From assembly GCA_016946835.1 (NCBI GenBank), contig JACVTC010000070.1, positions 667,501-722,500 of the forward strand: a DNA stretch of 55,000 nt. The letters run 5' to 3'. Positions 3,896-51,769 of this stretch are shown here, piece by piece. Made by a program: the position numbers and the translations under genes. Numbering within the stretch: the first letter of the stretch is position 1; every line of letters begins with the position of its first letter. This stretch comes from Neocallimastix lanati (nom. inval.). Lineage: Eukaryota > Neocallimastigomycota > Neocallimastigomycetes > Neocallimastigales > Neocallimastigaceae. The notes beneath the pieces are model-generated. The model saw only the letters and a program-made list of their open reading frames with translations, had not been told where the DNA came from and searched no databases.

Positions 3896-4852
3896 ATGGG
3901 TAAAAATAGAGTTTGTGAAATTCTTGGCATTGAAAAGCCAGTAATTCAAGCTCCAATGGCATGGATTACTTCTCCTGAACTTGTTGCTGCAGTTTCCAAT
4001 GCAGGAGGTCTCGGTGTTTTTGGTACTAGTGGTGGTTTTGAAGAAGAAATTAAAACTGTTGAAGGAACCATCGAAGAAATGAGAAAATGTATTCGCAAAG
4101 CTCGACAACTTACCGATAAACCTTTTGGTATGAATGTTTTTCCATCTACGGACGATCCATATGGATTTAGTAAAGCTACCATTCAACTTTGTAAGGAAGA
4201 AAATATTAAAATTCTTATTTTTGTAGGTAATGTTGTACCAGAAGAAATTTCTCAATTAAAAAAGGATGGTTTTATTATTGTTTTCAGAGAATCTAATCCA
4301 ACAGTAAATGGTGCTCTTGCTGCTGAAAAGGCCGGAGCAGATATTATTGTTACTACTGGTTGTGATGAAGGTGGTTGTGCTCCAATTCTTATTAATGGTA
4401 CCATGTCTATTGTAGCTTTAATATCTGAGTATGTTAAGATTCCAGTTGTTGCTGCTGGTGGTATTATCAATAGTAAGTTTGCTAAGGCTTCAGCTATTCT
4501 TGGAGCCGAAGGGGCATTCGTTGGTACTAGATTTATTCTTTCTAAAGAATGCCGTGCAGCTCAAGCCACAAAGGATGATATTATGACAACTAAACCAGAT
4601 GATTTTATTGTTTATGAAATCTTTGGTGGTCACTCCAGAATAAGAACCACTCCACATAGAATTGGTAAAGAAGGTTTAGCAGAAAATTCCAAAGGTAATA
4701 ATAATCCACGTTTAGGTAGTTTCTATCATGGTATGTTAAGAGGTAATGTGGATGAAGGTGTTATCACTGTTGCAAATGTGACTCCATTAATTAAATCCAT
4801 TGATTCTTGTGAAACAATTGTAAATGAAATTGCTGAAGGATATGAATATTAA
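3896..4852 (+). CDS. Nitronate monooxygenase / FabK-like FMN enzyme
   Basis: The 318-residue protein belongs to the nitronate monooxygenase (2-nitropropane dioxygenase)/FabK TIM-barrel family. These FMN enzymes oxidise nitronates such as propionate 3-nitronate or, in FabK, reduce enoyl-ACP. Visible signatures are IQAPMAWIT (18-25), the glycine-rich NAGGLG (35-40), GCDEGGC (155-161), the FMN-phosphate loop VVAAGGI (184-190) and GAFVGTRF (206-213). The length fits a complete single-domain member. In many nitronate monooxygenases the loop carrying the catalytic histidine reads EaGGH; here it reads DEGGC, with cysteine in the histidine place, so the substrate is uncertain. There is no signal peptide, hence probably cytosolic. 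The gene is intronless, starts in an AAAAAAATGGG context and is much richer in G+C than its flanks. A bacterial origin by transfer would be unsurprising but needs a tree. The ATG is the first in frame and directly precedes the conserved N-terminal barrel strand. Confidence 0.85.
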   Translation: MGKNRVCEILGIEKPVIQAPMAWITSPELVAAVSNAGGLGVFGTSGGFEEEIKTVEGTIEEMRKCIRKARQLTDKPFGMNVFPSTDDPYGFSKATIQLCKEENIKILIFVGNVVPEEISQLKKDGFIIVFRESNPTVNGALAAEKAGADIIVTTGCDEGGCAPILINGTMSIVALISEYVKIPVVAAGGIINSKFAKASAILGAEGAFVGTRFILSKECRAAQATKDDIMTTKPDDFIVYEIFGGHSRIRTTPHRIGKEGLAENSKGNNNPRLGSFYHGMLRGNVDEGVITVANVTPLIKSIDSCETIVNEIAEGYEY

Positions 4853-7704: not shown

Positions 7705-10137
7705 TTAATGATTATTTTTTCTACTTTTGGATTTAGTGGTTTTGGTTTTTTTAGTTTTGGTTTTTTTAGTTTTGGTTTTGGTAGTCTTGACTTTAGTAGT
7801 CTTAACTTTAGTAGTCTTGGTTTTCTTTGTCTTTGTTTTCTTAGTTTTAGTTTTAGTGATGGTGGTGGTAGTGGTAGTGGTGGCAGTAGTTGGGACTACG
7901 GGTCCTTCAATTTCATCGTATTGACCAACAATAGAACTTTTCCAAATTAAACCTGGTAAAACCATATTATTAATCTTACATTCGGTAACAAATGGATTAG
8001 ATGAGAAATAGACACATAATTTTTTATGGAAGGCATTAGTGTAATACGAGTTATCCTTGGCGTGATAAATATTGATAACATTATCATTAAATTTAAATTT
8101 ATATTGAGCCTTATTACATTCAACTAAATCAATATAATGTTTACCAAAATGATTTTTGGAATTACTAACATTTAAGCAATATTCAGTTGGGGTACCTACA
8201 TCACCTTTCTTACCATCGGATAAATGCATAAAGGAAGGTTCAGAAGTTGAAGTCAATAACCAGGTGTAATAAGAATTACTTTGCTTCAATTTAAGCTTTT
8301 TCATATTTCCAATCTTAGAAACACCTAAATATTTATTCTTTTTAACAGAGTTCTTTCCCTTATAGGTAAGGGCGGTATAAATAATTTTAATTTCAGGTGT
8401 TGGTTCAACAGAAATGGAAGTAGTCGTTGGTTCAACTTCAGTGGTTGTGGTAGTAGTTGTAGTTGTAGTAGTACTTGATTCTAATTCTGGATAGGAATAA
8501 GTAATTCTTTTATCATTTTTAATCACTAAATGATAGGATTGATCTTCTTCAATATAATCAATACTAACTCTATAATTTCCAATTTCTGAAGGGTTTCCCA
8601 TTTCAAAAATAACTTTACCATTTTCATCAAATAATTTTAAGATACCATTATTTTCAATTTCAAGGAAGTTCATTACCGCATCCGAAACATTAGTAAATAA
8701 GACTTCTAATTTGTTTTTGGTGGTATCGTCTGCAGTGTTATCTTCAAAGTATAATTTATTATCTTTATAATTGAAATAGAATTTAACGCTATTCTCCTTA
8801 TTGATAATTTTTTCAGTTTTATGTAATCTACTCATCTTAATTTCATCAGAACTCATATAGTAAAGATTTTGATCTCTTCTTGATTTTTCACCACAATAAT
8901 AAAATAATCTATAATATGGAGCGTCCAAATATGTTTTTATGTTTGGTAATTCTCCATTTTCAGAAAGTGTCCATAAATCATATTCATCTTTACCTGTATA
9001 TTCATCTTCTTCTTCTTCTTCTGCTTCTTCATCATCATCTTGTTCTTCCTCTTCCTTAGCATAAGCATTACCACTAGTTTGATCACTTATATATTCATCT
9101 TCATCCCAATAACAAGAATAATAACTATCAAAATTAACAAAAGTACCTTTCATAACATCTCTACAATAATTAATAAATTCACTATCTTTGTTTGATACGA
9201 AACAATCTCCATCCAGGTAATAGAGAGTTCTTTCATATTGATAACATAAATTTTGAAATTCTTCTTCACTTGGGTAAACAAAAGGTTCTGAGGGTCTCTC
9301 ATCAAAATCAGTGCCATCATAATTCTCATGTTGTATTTCGACGATTTGATGGAATTCTCCGTTATCCTTCTTCGTACAAAGGAACCAACTTTCGAAACCG
9401 AAATACTGATCTAATAATTCTTTATTATCACTTTTGGATTGAATTTCATTATCATCTTTATATGCTTCTTTAAGTAATTTTGATTGTAATTCTAAAATAT
9501 CTCCTTCCGCCTTATTTTCATATTCAGCATCACAACAAGCCATATCTTTTATTTTATTGTTGTAACAGACACGACTATAGGAACAATAGTAATTTTTTAA
9601 ATCATAGTTATAGGTATGGCCATTCTTTACTTTTGTACAGGTATCATTTACGGAATCGTAGGTTCCACCAATGTAGTCACATTTTTTTTGGTTATCACAA
9701 TAATGTTTATTTTTTATGGTGAGGGAACCTTCATCGGTTAAAACCACAGAATATTGGGAATCTAAAATATCGTCTTGTTCTTTTACAGTTTCCCAAATAG
9801 TATAATCATGAGCATCTTTAATAAGTATTTCAGCTCTATCAGATAAAACAATTTTATAAGGTGGACTGGCAAACCATACATTACTAGTATTACTTTGCCA
9901 TACAATTTTATCCTCATTTCTTAAAATGGCATTACCATCTTCCCCTAAATAAAATTGATATTTACCGTTGGGTGAAACAATAGCTTCATTTTCATTTAAA
10001 AATGTTTCATATGAACAAAGGTCAGTATTAGGAACATAGGTTCCATTATAAACATTATTAATTATTTGTTCAAATGAAAGACCAAATTTTAGAATTACAA
10101 AAGAATTAAGAATGATTTTAAAAAACCCAGATTTCAT
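7705..10137 (-). CDS. Secreted multi-lectin protein with Thr/Lys-rich tail
   Basis: The 810-residue product starts with a basic-hydrophobic leader (about 1-21), consistent with secretion. Residues about 50-145 look like a bulb-type (B-)lectin domain: SPNGKYQFYLGEDGNAILRN followed by IVWQSNTS and a second weaker repeat. A cysteine-rich segment follows (147-340). Next come an acidic run (361-380), a second B-lectin-like stretch (about 450-540, LEIENNGILKLFDENGKVIF), a Thr-only linker (555-566) and a region about 586-735. The last recalls a ricin-type beta-trefoil (YTWLL, CLNVSNS, VECNKAQYKFKF). The final 60 residues are Thr then KTK/TTKVK repeats. Fungal B-lectins bind mannose-like glycans; the basic repetitive tail suggests wall or polysaccharide anchoring (inference). 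There is no catalytic domain. The start is the only ATG giving a leader peptide. Domain calls are by eye; overall I call it an extracellular carbohydrate-binding protein of unknown role. Confidence 0.7.
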   Translation of the reverse strand: MKSGFFKIILNSFVILKFGLSFEQIINNVYNGTYVPNTDLCSYETFLNENEAIVSPNGKYQFYLGEDGNAILRNEDKIVWQSNTSNVWFASPPYKIVLSDRAEILIKDAHDYTIWETVKEQDDILDSQYSVVLTDEGSLTIKNKHYCDNQKKCDYIGGTYDSVNDTCTKVKNGHTYNYDLKNYYCSYSRVCYNNKIKDMACCDAEYENKAEGDILELQSKLLKEAYKDDNEIQSKSDNKELLDQYFGFESWFLCTKKDNGEFHQIVEIQHENYDGTDFDERPSEPFVYPSEEEFQNLCYQYERTLYYLDGDCFVSNKDSEFINYCRDVMKGTFVNFDSYYSCYWDEDEYISDQTSGNAYAKEEEEQDDDEEAEEEEEDEYTGKDEYDLWTLSENGELPNIKTYLDAPYYRLFYYCGEKSRRDQNLYYMSSDEIKMSRLHKTEKIINKENSVKFYFNYKDNKLYFEDNTADDTTKNKLEVLFTNVSDAVMNFLEIENNGILKLFDENGKVIFEMGNPSEIGNYRVSIDYIEEDQSYHLVIKNDKRITYSYPELESSTTTTTTTTTTTEVEPTTTSISVEPTPEIKIIYTALTYKGKNSVKKNKYLGVSKIGNMKKLKLKQSNSYYTWLLTSTSEPSFMHLSDGKKGDVGTPTEYCLNVSNSKNHFGKHYIDLVECNKAQYKFKFNDNVINIYHAKDNSYYTNAFHKKLCVYFSSNPFVTECKINNMVLPGLIWKSSIVGQYDEIEGPVVPTTATTTTTTTITKTKTKKTKTKKTKTTKVKTTKVKTTKTKTKKTKTKKTKTTKSKSRKNNH

Positions 10138-21593: not shown

Positions 21594-24536
21594 ATGTCTG
21601 AAAGTAACAATTGGGGAGTCGGTACTAAGTGCATTCAAGAAGGTTACAGACCAGGAATCGGAGAAGCAAGAGTACTTCCAATTATTCAATCCACTACTTA
21701 CAAATATGAAGATATAGATCAAGTTGCTCGTCTTTTCTCACTTCAAGAATCTGGTAATAAGTATGGAAGAACTGGTAATCCAACAGCTAATGCTTTTGAA
21801 GCTAAAGTTGCTGCTCTTGAAGGTGGTGTTGGTGCTTTATCTACTGCATCAGGTCAATCTGCTATATTTTTAGCTATTTCTAATATTGTTCAAGCTGGTG
21901 ATCATGTTGTTGCTTCTAATGCTGTTTACGGAGGAACTTACACTTTATTAAGTGTCAGACTTAAGAAACTTGGTGTTGAAACTACCTTTGTAAATCCAGA
22001 AGATCCAATTGATGAATTAAGAAAGGTTTTCAAACCAAACACTAAAGTTATCATCGGTGAAACTATTGGTAATCCAGCTCTCGGTATTCTTGATTTCGAT
22101 AAATTTGCAACTCTTGCTAAGGAATTTGATGTTCCTTTCATTGTAGATAATACTCTCGCTACTCCATTTATCTGTAAACCATTGAAGCATGGTGCTAATG
22201 TTGTTATTAATTCGGCTACTAAATATATGGATGGACATGCTGTTGCTCTTGGTGGTGTAATTGTTGATGGTGGTTCCTATAATTGGGCTAATGGAAAGTT
22301 CCCAGACTTTACTGAACCAGATGAACAATACGCTAACACTTCTTACACTGGAAAATTCGGTAAAAAGGCTTATATTACTAAGGCAAGAGCTCAATACATT
22401 AGAGATTTTGGACCTACTATTGCTCCAATTCATGCCTTCCTCATTAATCTTGGTCTTGAAACTTTACATCTTAGAATGCCAAGACATAGTGAAAATGCCT
22501 ATAAGCTTGCAAAATTCCTTAAGAGTAACAAAAGGGTTAATTGGGTTAATTACCCAGGTCTTGAAGATAATGTAAATTATCCAAGAATTTCAAAGTATTT
22601 TGATTATCATGGTGCCAGTGGTGTCCTTACTTTCGGTTTAAAGGGTGGTAATGAAGCTATTAAAAAGTTCGCTGCCGCTCTTAAGGTTGCTGCTCTTGTC
22701 GTCCATGTTGGTGATGCCAGAACTAGTATTCTTCATCCAGCTACTAGTACTCATTCACAAATGAGTCCTGAACAAAGACATGAAGCTGGTATTCCAGATG
22801 ATATGATTCGTGTTTCCGTTGGTATCGAAGATTCTGAAGATATCATCGCTGACTTTGATCAAGCTATTCAAAAAGCTTTTGAAGGAGTGGAAGAAAAAGA
22901 AAAAGAAGAAGAACAAGAACAAGAACATGCTGATCTAATTACTGTTAATACTTCAAAATATTTTGATCTCAAATCCGCTCCAGTTCATGTTAAGGAAAAA
23001 TTAGGTATTGCTGTCGTCGATAATGCCTATCTTCCACAAACTAAGGATGAAAATATTTCAGAAGATTGGCTTGCCTTCGTCTCCGTTCCTACCTTCAAGA
23101 AAATTGAGAGTGAAAGACCAGGAGAAATAAAATCTTTCTTATCCGTTGGTACTGGTTCTGGACTTGATGTTCTTGCTGGTGCTGAAGTCTTTGGTGCTAA
23201 GAGACTTGCCTTCACTGATCTTCAAGAAAAGGTCGTTAAGGCTGCTGCTAAGAATGTCGAAAGGAATCTTTTAAAACCAGATGAAGTTGAAGTTAACGGC
23301 TATACCGGAGATCTTTTTGCTCCACTTAGAAATAAGGAAGATCCAGCTAGTCAACCACGTTTTGATGTTATCTATGAAAATCTTCCAAATGTTCCACTTG
23401 CTGAAGATAAGGAAGTTGAAGATAGTCGTAACAGTGGTCATTACCTTGAAAAACGTAAGGAAAGAATTCCAAAGGAAGTTCATGCTGCTATGCTTGATCT
23501 TCACTTCCTTGCCTTACAACAAGCTAGTGAATTCCTTGAAGAAAAGGGGGTTGTCTTATCTCTTATTGGTGGACGTGTCCCTCTTGATACCATCGTTAAT
23601 TTAGGAACACAAGCTGGTGTTAACTCTGAAATTATCAAATATAAATGGAAAGTCCAATCCGAACCGGAAGATGTCATTGGTGGTTACGCCAAACAAGAAG
23701 AAGAAGGTTATGGTCCATTCATCTTTTACAGATCAGCTGATCTTAAGAAGGCCTTTGAAGGAGTAAGCTTTGAAGAATCCGGAGAAAAAGCTCATGATAT
23801 TGAAAAGTCGATTGAAGATAAGAGATTAACCGCTACCGAAGCCTTTAAGCTTTGGAAATCTGGTGAAAGCATTGGTCATACGGTTGTCGTATTAAAATCA
23901 AGTGCCATCCCTTCAGAGAAAAATGATGTCGTAGAAGTTTTAGAAGAAACCGGGAGGCACTTCAGAGAAATTGTCCAAAAAAACAAAAACCAAAGCCAAG
24001 GACAAAACCAATCCATCGAAGTCGAAAAAGTTCTTTTGTACGGGTTGCCTTCCATTCCCAAGACGTTAAGTAAATCTGATTCTCCACTTTTAAAATTTAA
24101 AGAAGATGCCATCGCTCATGGAACTAAAGAAAATGAAAAACTTATCCAAGCTCTTGTTAAAATTTATGACCAATTACCATGGGAATATAACTATAAGACA
24201 AGGGAAGATCTACCAGGTGCTGAAGAAATGATTGGTTGGGCAGAATTAGTAGGACCAAATGCTCCTTATATTTCTAATGATTATGGTCTTGGTTTCTTAG
24301 TGATAGGACCAAATACTAAATATCCAGCACATTATCATCCTGCCATAGAAACCTATATAGTATTAAGTGGAACGGCATTATGGACGCTTGATGGTAAAAC
24401 CACTCGTAAACAACCAGGAGAGGTAATTCTTCATCCTTCTGGACATGTACATTCCATGCAAACCGAAGACGAAACTCTTTTAGCAATATATCTATGGACT
24501 GGAGATGATATTTTAACCTCTTCAGTTTATGTATAA
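21594..24536 (+). CDS. Fused sulfur enzyme: OAH sulfhydrylase-like, methyltransferase, DMSP-lyase-like cupin
   Basis: One intronless 980-residue frame with three domains. (1) Residues 1-430 form a full-length Cys/Met-metabolism PLP enzyme of the fungal Met17/O-acetylhomoserine sulfhydrylase type: YGRTGNPT (57-64), SGQSA (86-90), YGGTY (112-116), D185 in DNTLATP, the Schiff-base lysine K210 in SATKYMDGH, and R406 in IRVSVG. (2) A Glu/Gln/Lys linker (430-445) leads to a class I SAM methyltransferase: FLSVGTGSG (515-523), acidic D542, and DVIYENLP (591-598) where HemK-type enzymes have NPPY. Its later part (LIGGRVP 657-663; TATEAFKLWKSGESIGH 746-762) resembles plant methionine S-methyltransferase by memory. 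(3) Residues about 860-980 form a cupin like DddL-type DMSP lyases: H913, H915, E919, Y921 in HYHPAIETY, then HPSGHVH with H953, then YLWTGD. All key residues of all three parts are present. A cytosolic role in methionine/dimethylsulfonium chemistry is inference; the PLP part could simply make methionine or homocysteine. The ATG follows an A-rich leader and the usual Met17 N-terminus follows it. Confidence 0.88.
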   Translation: MSESNNWGVGTKCIQEGYRPGIGEARVLPIIQSTTYKYEDIDQVARLFSLQESGNKYGRTGNPTANAFEAKVAALEGGVGALSTASGQSAIFLAISNIVQAGDHVVASNAVYGGTYTLLSVRLKKLGVETTFVNPEDPIDELRKVFKPNTKVIIGETIGNPALGILDFDKFATLAKEFDVPFIVDNTLATPFICKPLKHGANVVINSATKYMDGHAVALGGVIVDGGSYNWANGKFPDFTEPDEQYANTSYTGKFGKKAYITKARAQYIRDFGPTIAPIHAFLINLGLETLHLRMPRHSENAYKLAKFLKSNKRVNWVNYPGLEDNVNYPRISKYFDYHGASGVLTFGLKGGNEAIKKFAAALKVAALVVHVGDARTSILHPATSTHSQMSPEQRHEAGIPDDMIRVSVGIEDSEDIIADFDQAIQKAFEGVEEKEKEEEQEQEHADLITVNTSKYFDLKSAPVHVKEKLGIAVVDNAYLPQTKDENISEDWLAFVSVPTFKKIESERPGEIKSFLSVGTGSGLDVLAGAEVFGAKRLAFTDLQEKVVKAAAKNVERNLLKPDEVEVNGYTGDLFAPLRNKEDPASQPRFDVIYENLPNVPLAEDKEVEDSRNSGHYLEKRKERIPKEVHAAMLDLHFLALQQASEFLEEKGVVLSLIGGRVPLDTIVNLGTQAGVNSEIIKYKWKVQSEPEDVIGGYAKQEEEGYGPFIFYRSADLKKAFEGVSFEESGEKAHDIEKSIEDKRLTATEAFKLWKSGESIGHTVVVLKSSAIPSEKNDVVEVLEETGRHFREIVQKNKNQSQGQNQSIEVEKVLLYGLPSIPKTLSKSDSPLLKFKEDAIAHGTKENEKLIQALVKIYDQLPWEYNYKTREDLPGAEEMIGWAELVGPNAPYISNDYGLGFLVIGPNTKYPAHYHPAIETYIVLSGTALWTLDGKTTRKQPGEVILHPSGHVHSMQTEDETLLAIYLWTGDDILTSSVYV

Positions 24537-30988: not shown

Positions 30989-32455
30989 ATGTTTTGGTTA
31001 GCTCTTACTCTTCCACTTTTAGTAAAGGCACAAAATCCAATTATTCGTGACCAATTTACGGCTGATCCTACTGCACGTATATTTAATGACAAGGTGTACT
31101 TGTATCCTTCACACGATATTATTCCACCGGAAGGACAACGTCAAGATTGGTTCGCTATGGAGGATTACCATGTGTTCTCCTCCGAAAATCTTACAGAATG
31201 GACAGATCATGGTGTCATTGTTTCACAAAACAATGTTACCTGGGTCAAACCAAATGATTATTCTATGTGGGCACCAGATTGTGTATACAAAAATGGAAAC
31301 TATTATTTCTATTTCCCATCCGTTAGTGCTAAAGCTAATACATTTAATGTTGGTGTAGCCATCTCTGATAGCCCAGAAGGACCATTTGTTCCTGAACCGG
31401 AACCAATCAAAGGTGTTAATGGTATTGATCCATGTGTACTTCAAGCTTCCGATGGTAATGCCTATCTTTTCTATGGTAGAGGTTATTGTGCTAAGCTTAA
31501 TCCAAATATGAAGGAACTCGCCGATGATAATCCAGTAACAACTATTAATATTGGTAATTTCAAGATGAATTTTATTGGTTATGATTTACTTAGAGATCTT
31601 CCAAATAATCAAGCAGAAGGTCCATTTGCCTTTGAATACAATGATAACTTTTATTTAACCTATCCTTATGTTAGAAATGACACTGAAGTTCTTGCCTATG
31701 CCATGAGTAAGAATGTATTGGGTCCATACGAGTATAAGGGAATAATTATGGCTGAACATGAAAACGGATGTTGGACGAACCATCACAGTATCATTAATTA
31801 CAAGGGACAATGGTATTTATTCTATCATCATAATGCTTTCTCTCCAAACGATGATAAGCGTCGTTCGGTTCAAATTGAAAAGTTGTTCTTTAATCCAGAT
31901 GGTACTATTCAAGAAGTAAAAAAAACCATGCGTGGAGTAGGCATTAATCAAGCTACAGAAACCATTGAAATTGACCGTTACAGCAGTGCCAGTTCTGATG
32001 TCACCAACGGACTTATTAAAAAGGAGAATGCCTTCCCAGGTTTACAAGCAACTCTTCCTACCAAGGGTAGTTGGCTTAAATATACTGATGTTGATTTCAG
32101 CAGTATTGAAGATGGTCATATGATTATGAATGTTAAAGCCGATGATGATGTCAAGTTCTGTATTCGTGAAGGTAGTACTAAAGGTAAAGCCATTGCCTGT
32201 ATCACATTATCCTTAAGTTCCTCTTCTGCTGATATGAGAGGCCAATGGGTTAAGGCCTCTGCTGCATTAGAGTATGTTCCAGAGGGTGTTATTGATCTTG
32301 TCATGACCAATGAAGGAGAACATGCCGTTTCTGTTGATTGGGTAACCTTTAAAAACAGTGAAATTTCTGAAATCGAATCTGAAGTTGAAGAAGTATCAGC
32401 TAACGTTGAAGAAGAAGAAGAAGATAATGATTCTGATTCAGAAGATGAAATATAA
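30989..32455 (+). CDS. Secreted GH43 glycosidase (arabinosidase/xylosidase-type)
   Basis: The 488-residue protein starts with a short signal peptide, probably cut after VKA (12-14). Residues about 16-325 form a five-bladed GH43 catalytic domain. The expected triad is visible: general base D26 in TADPTARIF, pKa-tuning D147 in GIDPCVL and general acid E210 in AEGPF. H265/H266 in WTNHHS fits the histidine at the metal site of this clan. GH43 enzymes release arabinose or xylose from hemicellulose by inversion. The region about 335-455 (SWLKYTDVDF, VDWVTF) resembles a CBM6-type beta-sandwich of the kind often attached to GH43. The last 30 residues are almost all acidic plus Ser. No dockerin is present, unlike many gut-fungal hydrolases, so it is probably free or wall-held rather than cellulosomal (inference). 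Intronless, with A-rich leader. Such genes in these fungi are often thought to be bacterial in origin. The exact substrate cannot be read from the sequence. Confidence 0.87.
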   Translation: MFWLALTLPLLVKAQNPIIRDQFTADPTARIFNDKVYLYPSHDIIPPEGQRQDWFAMEDYHVFSSENLTEWTDHGVIVSQNNVTWVKPNDYSMWAPDCVYKNGNYYFYFPSVSAKANTFNVGVAISDSPEGPFVPEPEPIKGVNGIDPCVLQASDGNAYLFYGRGYCAKLNPNMKELADDNPVTTINIGNFKMNFIGYDLLRDLPNNQAEGPFAFEYNDNFYLTYPYVRNDTEVLAYAMSKNVLGPYEYKGIIMAEHENGCWTNHHSIINYKGQWYLFYHHNAFSPNDDKRRSVQIEKLFFNPDGTIQEVKKTMRGVGINQATETIEIDRYSSASSDVTNGLIKKENAFPGLQATLPTKGSWLKYTDVDFSSIEDGHMIMNVKADDDVKFCIREGSTKGKAIACITLSLSSSSADMRGQWVKASAALEYVPEGVIDLVMTNEGEHAVSVDWVTFKNSEISEIESEVEEVSANVEEEEEDNDSDSEDEI

Positions 32456-49893: not shown

Positions 49894-51769
49894 ATGAGTA
49901 AAAATTACAATAAGCGTTTATTATTCTACACAATCATTAATTCAGTTGGTTTCTTCATTTTTGGTTGGGAAACCATTATGTTAAAGTAAGTCTCGATAAA
50001 TCTTTTTTATTTTTTATTTATTTATTTTTTTTTATTTTAAAAATATTATTATTATTTTTTTTTTTTTTTATATTATTTCAATTTATAATATTGATAATAA
50101 TAAGAACAAAAAAAAAAAAAAAAAAATTATTAAAGTACTTATTTGAAGATAGAAATAAGGTTGATATTTCCTTAAGAAAAAAAATGAAAAATTAAATATT
50201 AAATAATATTGGATAATAAATAGTGTTAGATTATATTGTTGAATAATAAATAAAATATATAATGTTTATTATATTAATAAAAATTTTTTTTCTTTTTTCT
50301 TTTAATATAATAATTATAATAAAATTAGTATTCTTTACTCAATGAGACCTTCATTTGGTGCTCAATTTGGATTATATACCTTTGATCCTAAAAAGCACTA
50401 TTGGGCTGAAAGTGAAGATAAAAATTTAAGAGAAATGATAATTACTCCTTCTTTTACTTTCGGTGGTATTGTAGGTATTCTTATTAACTTTTGTTTGATG
50501 GATACTATTGGACGTGTTAAATCTTTACGTATCGGTTCTTTTATCTACTTTGTTGGTACTTGTTTTCAAGTTTTCGGTAGTACTATGACTACTTTTGTTA
50601 TTGGTCGTACCATTTGTGGTTGTGCTTCCGGAATTGCTCTTTCCTTAGGTAATGTCTATCTTGCTGAAATTTCTCCAAAACAAGTTCGTGGTAAAACCGG
50701 TATTACTTGTGCTTTAGGTCTTAATGGTGGTATGTTTATTTCTTCTCTCTTTGAAACTTTATGTTTAAAATTAATTACTAAAAATATGACCGCTCAATGG
50801 AGAGTAGCTGTAGGAGGTTTATTAGTACCTTCCGCTCTCTTCTTAATCCTTGTTTGGTTCCTTCCAGAATCCCCTCGTTACTTATTATTAAAGAGGAAAG
50901 AGGATGAAGCCCTCAAAAATTTAGCTTATATTCGTCAAAAAGAAAGTACGGATCCATCCATTATTGGAGAATTTAGAGGTATTAGTTTTGGTGTTAACAA
51001 GCAACTTGCTCATGGGGCCTCTTCATGGCTTGATTTCTTTAGATCTAAATCGATGATCTATCGTATGATCGTTGTCATCATTTTACAACTTCTTCATCAA
51101 TTCGTCGGTATTAGTGTCATTGGATTTTATTCTACTCAAATTTATAGTAAGTACCTTGGTCTCTCCCTTGAAAAATATGGTGCTTGGCTTAATACCTTGA
51201 GTCAATTTATTTCCTTTGCTTTAGCTATTCCTGCCATTCATTTTGTTGAAAAAATTGGTAGAAGATTACTTTTTATTTGGGGTGCTATTGGTCTTGGTGT
51301 CTGTATGTATGCTATTTATGGTCTTTGTCATATTGTCGATGCTACCGGTATTAAAGCTTTAGGTTGGATTTGTGTTGGTTTCATTTACCTCTACAATATT
51401 ACCTATGCCTGGACTTGGGCTTCCGTTGTCTATGTATGGCAAGCCGAAGTTTTCCCAATTCGTATACGTGCCAAAGCTACCACAATTGGTAACATTTTCC
51501 ATCAATTTGGTGGTATTCTTGTTTCATCTACGACCACGACCTTAATGAAATATCTTTCTTACTATATATTTATAATTTACGGTACCTTCTGTATACTTGG
51601 TGCCATTTTCAGTTATTTATGTGTTAAAGAAACGAAGGGTATTCCATTAGAAGAAATGGATTACCTTTATGGTAAGAAACCAGAGGAACCAACAAAAGAT
51701 ATTAAAAAAGAAATTGAAGAAGATAGAAATATTAATAAAAAAATGGAATGTGATATTACTGAAGCTTAA
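49894..51769 (+). CDS. MFS sugar transporter, two exons
   Basis: Join 49894-49985 and 50329-51769, giving 510 residues. Exon 1 (MSKNYNKRLLFYTIINSVGF...) supplies the first membrane helix; without it the downstream frame would lack TM1. The AA left from exon 1 plus T opens exon 2 in frame (Asn-Ile-Leu-Tyr-Ser-Met). Sugar-porter marks are present: DTIGR (89-93), AEISPKQVRG (143-152), PESPRY (210-215), HQFVGISVIGFYST (287-300), EKIGRR (338-343), EVFPIRIRA (404-412) and KETKGIPLEE (464-473). About twelve helices are expected and the length is normal for hexose or xylose carriers of the plasma membrane. The tail is short and charged. Substrate cannot be told; uptake of sugars released by hydrolases such as the GH43 enzyme in this window fits the lifestyle. 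Start: the ATG at 49894 follows an A-rich leader. Confidence 0.9.
49986..50328 (+). other. Intron of the sugar transporter gene
   Basis: 343 nt, donor GTAAGTCTC, acceptor AAAATTAG. Very AT-rich with in-frame stops. Splicing restores a continuous sugar-porter frame across the junction. Confidence 0.88.

Follow-up and report, generated by a model that had tools for sequence, protein, structure and literature searches.

A three-domain gene of gut fungi joining an O-acetylhomoserine sulfhydrylase-type enzyme, an MmtN-fold methyltransferase and a DddQ-type cupin: probable fusion of a bacterial operon with a possible role in methionine synthesis

The best-described relatives of the three-domain gene considered here, which lies at 21594..24536 on the plus strand of a 55,000-nucleotide stretch of DNA from the anaerobic gut fungus Neocallimastix lanati (hereafter, the window), are the methyltransferase MmtN, the plant methionine S-methyltransferase MMT, the dimethylsulfoniopropionate (DMSP) lyase DddQ and the O-acetylhomoserine (OAH) sulfhydrylases Met17/MetY, including those of methanethiol-based methionine salvage. 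MmtN (PDB 7VVV, 7VVW and 7VVX; PMC9135737, in its available part) is the closest solved relative of the middle domain, but here the position of MmtN Glu127 is non-acidic, Cys121 is replaced by Asn and no residue aligns with Tyr160; in addition, genes of the window type adjoin sulfhydrylase and cupin genes, whereas MmtN is found with DMSP-synthesis or nonribosomal peptide synthetase genes (same part of PMC9135737). Plant MMT, a methyltransferase with a C-terminal aminotransferase, resembles the window protein in combining a pyridoxal 5'-phosphate (PLP)-type with an MmtN-like domain in a single chain, but the PLP domain of the window protein is N-terminal and belongs to the Cys_Met_Meta_PP family, and the cupin is an additional, third domain. 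This cupin is approximately 22% identical to DddQ, lies beside an MmtN-like gene (by which the loci compared were chosen) and has a predicted activity. The PLP domain shares with Met17/MetY a match to TIGR01326 above the cut-off, but sits with a methyltransferase and a cupin in one chain (in bacteria, one operon). Finally, a bacterial siderophore operon has reportedly been transferred into yeasts (a finding attributed to Kominek, 2019); several genes of one operon likewise seem to have entered a fungus here, where they appear to have become one reading frame.

No description of either the operon or the fusion was found in the open literature searched, in line with the sequence-only reading, to which no description of the fusion was known; as few subscription journals were covered, this is weak evidence of absence. 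In the same literature, DMSP lyase and anaerobic gut fungi were not found together, and a search combining DMSP lyase, methyltransferase, fusion, cupin and fungi gave, as judged by its listing, no literature on such a protein. A methionine-salvage review that names DMSP lyase, cupin and O-acetylhomoserine describes neither operon nor fusion in its available part, and the words cupin, homoserine and methyltransferase are absent from the main texts of two gut-fungal genome papers.

The gene runs from ATG to stop in a single unbroken frame of 980 codons plus the stop, and translation of 21594-24536 shows no internal stop codons, as the sequence-only reading had maintained. Along the 980-residue chain, an OAH sulfhydrylase-type PLP domain is followed by an MmtN-fold methyltransferase and then by a DddQ-type DMSP-lyase cupin (all positions given below for this gene are on the plus strand). 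A search with residues 440-980 against 5.8 billion proteins, in which the best 8000 candidates by common words were scored, yielded three further full-length fusions (P0002 to P0004; 84, 81 and 72% identical), and because these align along the whole length the fusion is not a product of chance; it is real and conserved. The fourth match, P0005, appears chimeric. The first linker (residues 430-449; 22881..22940), which is rich in Glu, Lys and Gln and differs in length among the four fusions, takes the position of a short intergenic gap in bacteria (60 bp in Butyrivibrio locus L001 and 24 bp in L002) and contains, by repeat analysis, 6.2 copies of a 6-bp tandem repeat, AAGAAC (22891..22927). Codon usage of the fused gene correlates with that of four other window genes (r = 0.87-0.90) far more than with that of the Butyrivibrio operon (r = 0.36), and the content of guanine plus cytosine (GC) is 37% inside the gene and 9 and 11% in its 1-kb flanks; this codon usage and these AT-rich flanks indicate a gene native to an AT-rich genome.

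Residues 11-425 (21624..22868) form the PLP gamma-family domain, which matches Cys_Met_Meta_PP (PF01053; 399.5 bits) and, above its cut-off, TIGR01326, the NCBI model of the OAH sulfhydrylase subfamily (548.7 against 495.1 bits), so that the earlier assignment to Met17-type enzymes holds. Among the models listed, those for methionine gamma-lyase and for narrower sulfhydrylase equivalogs all score under their cut-offs. In an alignment of the window domain with 9 of the 13 non-redundant PLP genes (L048, L053, L066 and L068 being omitted), K210 in SATKYMDGH (22221..22223), presumably the Schiff-base PLP lysine, is invariant in 10/10 rows, as are Y57, R59, D185, S207 and R376, which we take to be cofactor-related residues. 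The domain is 82% identical to its counterpart in Butyrivibrio L001 and, judged from its sequence, would use OAH with sulfide or a thiol.

The middle domain (residues 450-769; 22941..23900) is a methyltransferase dependent on S-adenosylmethionine (SAM). Its AlphaFold2 model (predicted local distance difference test, pLDDT, 92.9) has MmtN as top fold match, although the Foldseek template-modelling score is just 0.52-0.55 by query length. The sequence-only reading had placed all three domains in families by eye; profiles do so for the first and the last, whereas the sole Pfam match of the middle domain, to PrmA, is weak (23.9 bits, cut-off 22), and its placement with MmtN comes from fold and from a profile match (E = 7.2e-9). 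A sequence-profile search of PDB was led by HemK-type chains (E = 0.0017), with 7vvv reaching E = 0.09, and a stretch of plant MMT, in an approximate sequence, matched at E = 1e-7. We aligned 44 methyltransferases (39 of 46 non-redundant loci and 5 others), in which the window domain retains the invariant residues of its family: G519, G521 and G523 of the SAM loop SVGTGSG (S517-G523; 23142..23162) are kept in 44/44, that is, the GxGxG motif, as is the SAM-ribose aspartate (MmtN Asp69), and the YENLPN motif (residues 594-599; 23373..23390), where MmtN has CLPQ, has Y594 to N599 in 44/44. Two further positions of MmtN give a mixed picture: Arg132 aligns to E607 at a mixed position (R in 5/44, and in just 10/18 of the MmtN comparison set) within loop 606-612 of pLDDT <50, and the position of Glu250, contributed in MmtN by the neighbouring protomer, holds E in 22/44. 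The comparison set comprised 18 of 120 listed MmtN-like proteins (the best 120 of 188). The window domain is 63% identical to that of Butyrivibrio L001. A protein search with the middle domain gave 865 proteins; among the best 120, those of Anaeromyces robustus and Piromyces sp. E2, annotated as partial, came first (83 and 81%), followed by solo proteins of approximately 320 residues, some from Piromyces or Neocallimastix and some from Fibrobacter. Gut fungi also carry a solo, diverged methyltransferase (P0012 to P0015 and P0027) that groups with the fusions and in which R661 is replaced by V and H762 by Y; to judge by these changes, it may have acquired another function or lost its activity.

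The C-terminal domain (residues 771-980; 23904..24533) is a DddQ-type DMSP-lyase cupin in which structure comparison finds the DddQ fold including the N-terminal helices, and residues 827-963 (24072..24482) match Pfam DMSP_lyase (PF16867) with 87.0 bits against a cut-off of 27. In an alignment of 33 rows (the window and 32 of 34 loci), the active-site strand with Y910, H913, H915, E919 and Y921 (24321..24356; aligned to DddQ YDWHSHQAEELY), H953, the third His of the cupin motif (24450..24452), and W968 are invariant in 33/33, and the active-site residues are identical across the four fusions. The domain is 49% identical to the Butyrivibrio L001 gene. The metal ligands and active tyrosines align with DddQ chains including the Y131A mutant; beyond that alignment, their roles are presumed from the family. 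The suggestion of a DMSP-lyase-like cupin is thereby upheld, and K210, the VGTGSG loop and H913/H915/E919/Y921/H953 all lie where the sequence-only reading had put them. DMSP-lyase cupins require a substrate whose sulfonium stands beta to a carboxylate; their family is said, in a title of Lei (2018), to include members of unknown function.

A search for the same domain order, proposed earlier for gut fungi and rumen bacteria, gave in addition to the three fusions a bacterial operon. We located the domains by tblastn with the three window domains in 80 loci (of 81 relatives) that bear the methyltransferase in GTDB genomes; as this set is skewed (16 loci from Fibrobacter, 20 from Azoarcus/Zoogloeaceae), counts are also given per taxon, some taxa being named to family or higher, and gene starts, gaps and neighbours come from mechanical gene calls, which are error-prone, above all in GC-rich loci. 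The PLP, methyltransferase and cupin genes follow each other in this order on one strand in 38/80 loci and 12/35 taxa, from Bacillota, Fibrobacterota, Pseudomonadota, Verrucomicrobiota and Acidobacteriota, and the distance between the first two is at most 300 bp in 30 of these 38 loci. In Butyrivibrio L001, the 60-bp gap between them is followed by an 8-bp overlap of methyltransferase and cupin genes. Of the 74 loci with enough flank, 58 have the cupin gene no more than 1 kb downstream from the methyltransferase gene, which makes the two look like a pair, and a PLP gene lies within 3 kb upstream in 32/63 loci and within 300 bp in 23/63. No gene call in the 80 loci bears two of the three domains.

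Each of the three domain trees groups the fungal proteins with Butyrivibrio (Shimodaira-Hasegawa-like approximate likelihood ratio test 99 for the methyltransferase, 100 for the PLP domain and 94, the weakest, for the cupin), and Oxalobacter, Fibrobacter and Butyrivibrio stand near the fungal proteins in each. These trees were built from subsets of 45, 31 and 30 rows by a quick method without bootstrap, and two branches of the PLP tree are very long; the path to Butyrivibrio L001 is 0.34 for the PLP domain and 2.18 for the cupin. On the basis of these trees we infer transfer and fusion, and the fusion is almost certainly derived from a bacterial operon. Most likely, judging from the sequences, a rumen operon was taken up and its genes then joined into a single one: from a Butyrivibrio-like bacterium of the rumen, the three-gene operon would have passed to an ancestor of the gut fungi and been fused there in gene order into one frame, a single operon transfer followed by fusion probably being the simplest history. 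Transfer of an already fused bacterial gene would be the alternative, but no such gene is seen among the 80 loci.

What the three domains do together can be argued from the chemistry of their families: MmtN methylates the sulfur of methionine, cupins of this type remove a sulfonium in the beta position to a carboxylate, and the PLP enzyme couples a thiol with homoserine. Thioethers resist cleavage without oxygen, and in the sulfonium form the thioether is a good leaving group. We consider it a little short of an even chance that the gene serves a C-S cleavage that is activated by methylation and independent of oxygen, the PLP step being part of that pathway; the particular order of steps and type of substrate that follow are clearly less probable and are offered tentatively, by analogy. 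The PLP domain would condense OAH with a thiol bearing a beta-carboxylate, most simply 3-mercaptopropionate or cysteine, to a thioether, an S-substituted homocysteine; the MmtN-fold domain would S-methylate this with SAM to a sulfonium; and in the DddQ-type cupin the active Tyr would remove the proton alpha to the carboxylate, expelling the sulfonium to give acrylate (or aminoacrylate) and methionine. The intermediate that would fit all three domains is thus S-methylated S-(2-carboxyethyl)- or S-(2-amino-2-carboxyethyl)-homocysteine, and the net reaction would turn thiol, OAH and SAM into methionine, unsaturated acid, acetate and S-adenosylhomocysteine, an oxygen-free transfer of sulfur from an organic thiol to the methionine pool. 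The cystathionine variant would fit because cysteine is the sole usable sulfur source of N. lanati according to the available part of PMC8561657, in which the other reducing agents seemed toxic and need for cysteine could not be told from their toxicity. The proposal as a whole, i.e., an undescribed oxygen-independent pathway of five bacterial phyla that leads from a homocysteine thioether through a sulfonium and cupin cleavage to methionine, and that gut fungi captured whole as one enzyme, is possible but should be held as unlikely rather than likely.

Neighbouring bacterial genes are consistent with such a role. SsuA/NMT1-like importer genes lie near the operon in Fibrobacterales (L003), Oxalobacter (L020) and Rhodopseudomonas (L064), MetQ- and MetI-like genes slightly under curated cut-offs at L066, and in Rhodoblastus the methyltransferase-cupin pair is followed by two OAH-sulfhydrylase-like genes (identity with the window domain approximately 30 and 41%), with a cystathionine beta-synthase-like gene nearby. 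At L035 an MtaA/CmuA-type methyltransferase, RACo and a B12-binding (corrinoid) protein flank the operon, and genes of the same cluster as the MtaA/CmuA-type gene flank it in L034, L035, L046 and L050 (three verrucomicrobia and one acidobacterium); clustering of gene calls widens these neighbour families, importers included, to further loci. All these neighbours, with the DUF1847 and Nif-like genes given below, point to salvage of organic sulfur.

Several observations weigh against the thioether-sulfonium proposal. The route costs one SAM per methionine, and, as sulfide is usually present in the rumen, the need for it is not obvious. The cupin gene occurs in 25/35 taxa and the PLP gene in 12/35, the methyltransferase-cupin pair being frequently found with no upstream PLP gene, so that the PLP step may not be obligatory; 8 of the 38 three-gene loci, six of them Fibrobacterota, have 0.6-2.8 kb between PLP and methyltransferase genes, and some Fibrobacter have an opposite-strand gene there. 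The top-scoring model of the PLP domain, the equivalog NF005215 (556.8 bits), stays under its cut-off of 709. The methionine-binding Glu127 of MmtN aligns, in a loop of middling confidence, to L602, a position that is L, V, I, A, T or S in 44/44 and D or E in 15/18 of the MmtN set; as Glu127 is not conserved, thioether methylation is argued by analogy of fold. In P0004, the most distant fusion, N replaces H762, which is elsewhere shared with MmtN, and divergent methyltransferases lacking a cupin have other partners.

Among the alternatives, a DMSP route survives best, though it is unlikely: 3-methylthiopropionate, a breakdown product of methionine, would be methylated to DMSP and split by the cupin to dimethyl sulfide and acrylate, the sulfhydrylase being coupled only through later conversion of dimethyl sulfide to methanethiol. 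The window cupin is indeed closest to DMSP lyases, and MtaA/CmuA- and Nif-like enzymes, which could demethylate dimethyl sulfide, are encoded beside the operon in the three verrucomicrobial loci and the acidobacterial one (with corrinoid protein and RACo in L035) and, as NifB- and NifH-like genes, just upstream in Rhodopseudomonas L049. Such clusters are, however, absent from the mapped surroundings of the Butyrivibrio and Fibrobacter operons and do not adjoin the window gene, most bacterial neighbours being unannotated. We regard as still less probable a route in which a thiol acid receives a methyl cap from the methyltransferase and then loses methanethiol in the cupin, which the PLP domain would couple with OAH to give methionine. 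The last step is a described salvage reaction (PMC5893883, in its available part) and the net reaction would be identical to that of the thioether-sulfonium route, but the fold relative MmtN acts on a thioether (PMC9135737, available part). Thiolate is, moreover, a poorer leaving group than a thioether in the DMSP-lyase mechanism.

About equally improbable is that the PLP domain is a plain homocysteine synthase, while methyltransferase and cupin serve some unrelated function or have lost theirs, the fusion only keeping them co-expressed. The PLP domain has diverged much less than the cupin (0.34 against 2.18 on the path to Butyrivibrio L001), and R661 and H762 are replaced in the solo fungal paralogs and H762 in the fusion P0004; on the other hand, the cupin active-site residues are identical in the four fusions and the window methyltransferase keeps the family-invariant residues. 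The route suggested by the sequence-only reading, from methionine through S-methylmethionine to dimethyl sulfide, taken here with gamma-cleavage by the PLP domain, is weakened and slightly less probable still. The MmtN fold of the middle domain stands, the position of Arg132 falls in a low-confidence loop and holds R in just 10/18 of the MmtN set, and a gamma-family PLP enzyme could in principle release dimethyl sulfide from S-methylmethionine. But Glu127 is not conserved, the cupin, which needs a beta-carboxylate sulfonium, would be left with no role despite being a common neighbour of the methyltransferase, and the PLP domain scores as an OAH sulfhydrylase and under the cut-offs of the listed methionine gamma-lyase models. 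An assembly error, a gene-calling error or bacterial contamination is practically negligible, as the same fusion occurs in four differing sequences, codon usage matches the other window genes and the flanks are AT-rich, and fusion homologs, codon usage and flank GC gave no evidence in its favour.

The module connects methionine synthesis in microbes of the rumen and other non-marine habitats to two families of marine sulfur cycling, MmtN and the DMSP lyases, and defines a three-gene unit of putative function in at least 12 taxa, for which one protein offers the whole pathway for assay. The window gene appears to be a clear case of a bacterial operon turned into a single eukaryotic gene, by which a eukaryote would keep an operon working in the absence of polycistronic translation. 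If the thioether-sulfonium route is true, DMSP lyases would represent a single branch within a broader family of C-S lyases that act on sulfoniums.

Some further neighbours were seen around the bacterial genes. Divergent, cupin-less methyltransferases adjoin exporter-like genes and a cysteine-synthase-like or weakly CntL-like gene, and probably do something else. At L061, L071, L072 and L079 the divergent gene stands by a gene weakly like staphylopine enzyme CntL (by a match of 19.9 bits in L072, elsewhere by clustering), with an RhtB-like exporter beside it at L061; perhaps these genes form a small-molecule pathway. The methyltransferase-cupin pair of Rhodopseudomonas palustris JSC-3b is preceded by NifX-, NifB- and NifH-like genes (L049, 3191-5435), and no nitrogenase D or K subunit was recognised among the part of the neighbours scanned. 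A DUF1847 protein, of which no mention was found in the open literature searched, is encoded near the operon at L020 (4581-5378) and, by clustering, at L030, L046, L050, L055, L060 and L075.

Elsewhere, the window contains an 810-residue protein on the minus strand (7705-10137) with no Pfam match, with threonine runs and terminal Lys-Thr repeats, an uninterrupted nitronate monooxygenase-like gene of 318 residues (3896-4852), a GH43 glycosidase with CBM6 (30989-32455) and an MFS-type sugar transporter (50342-51769).

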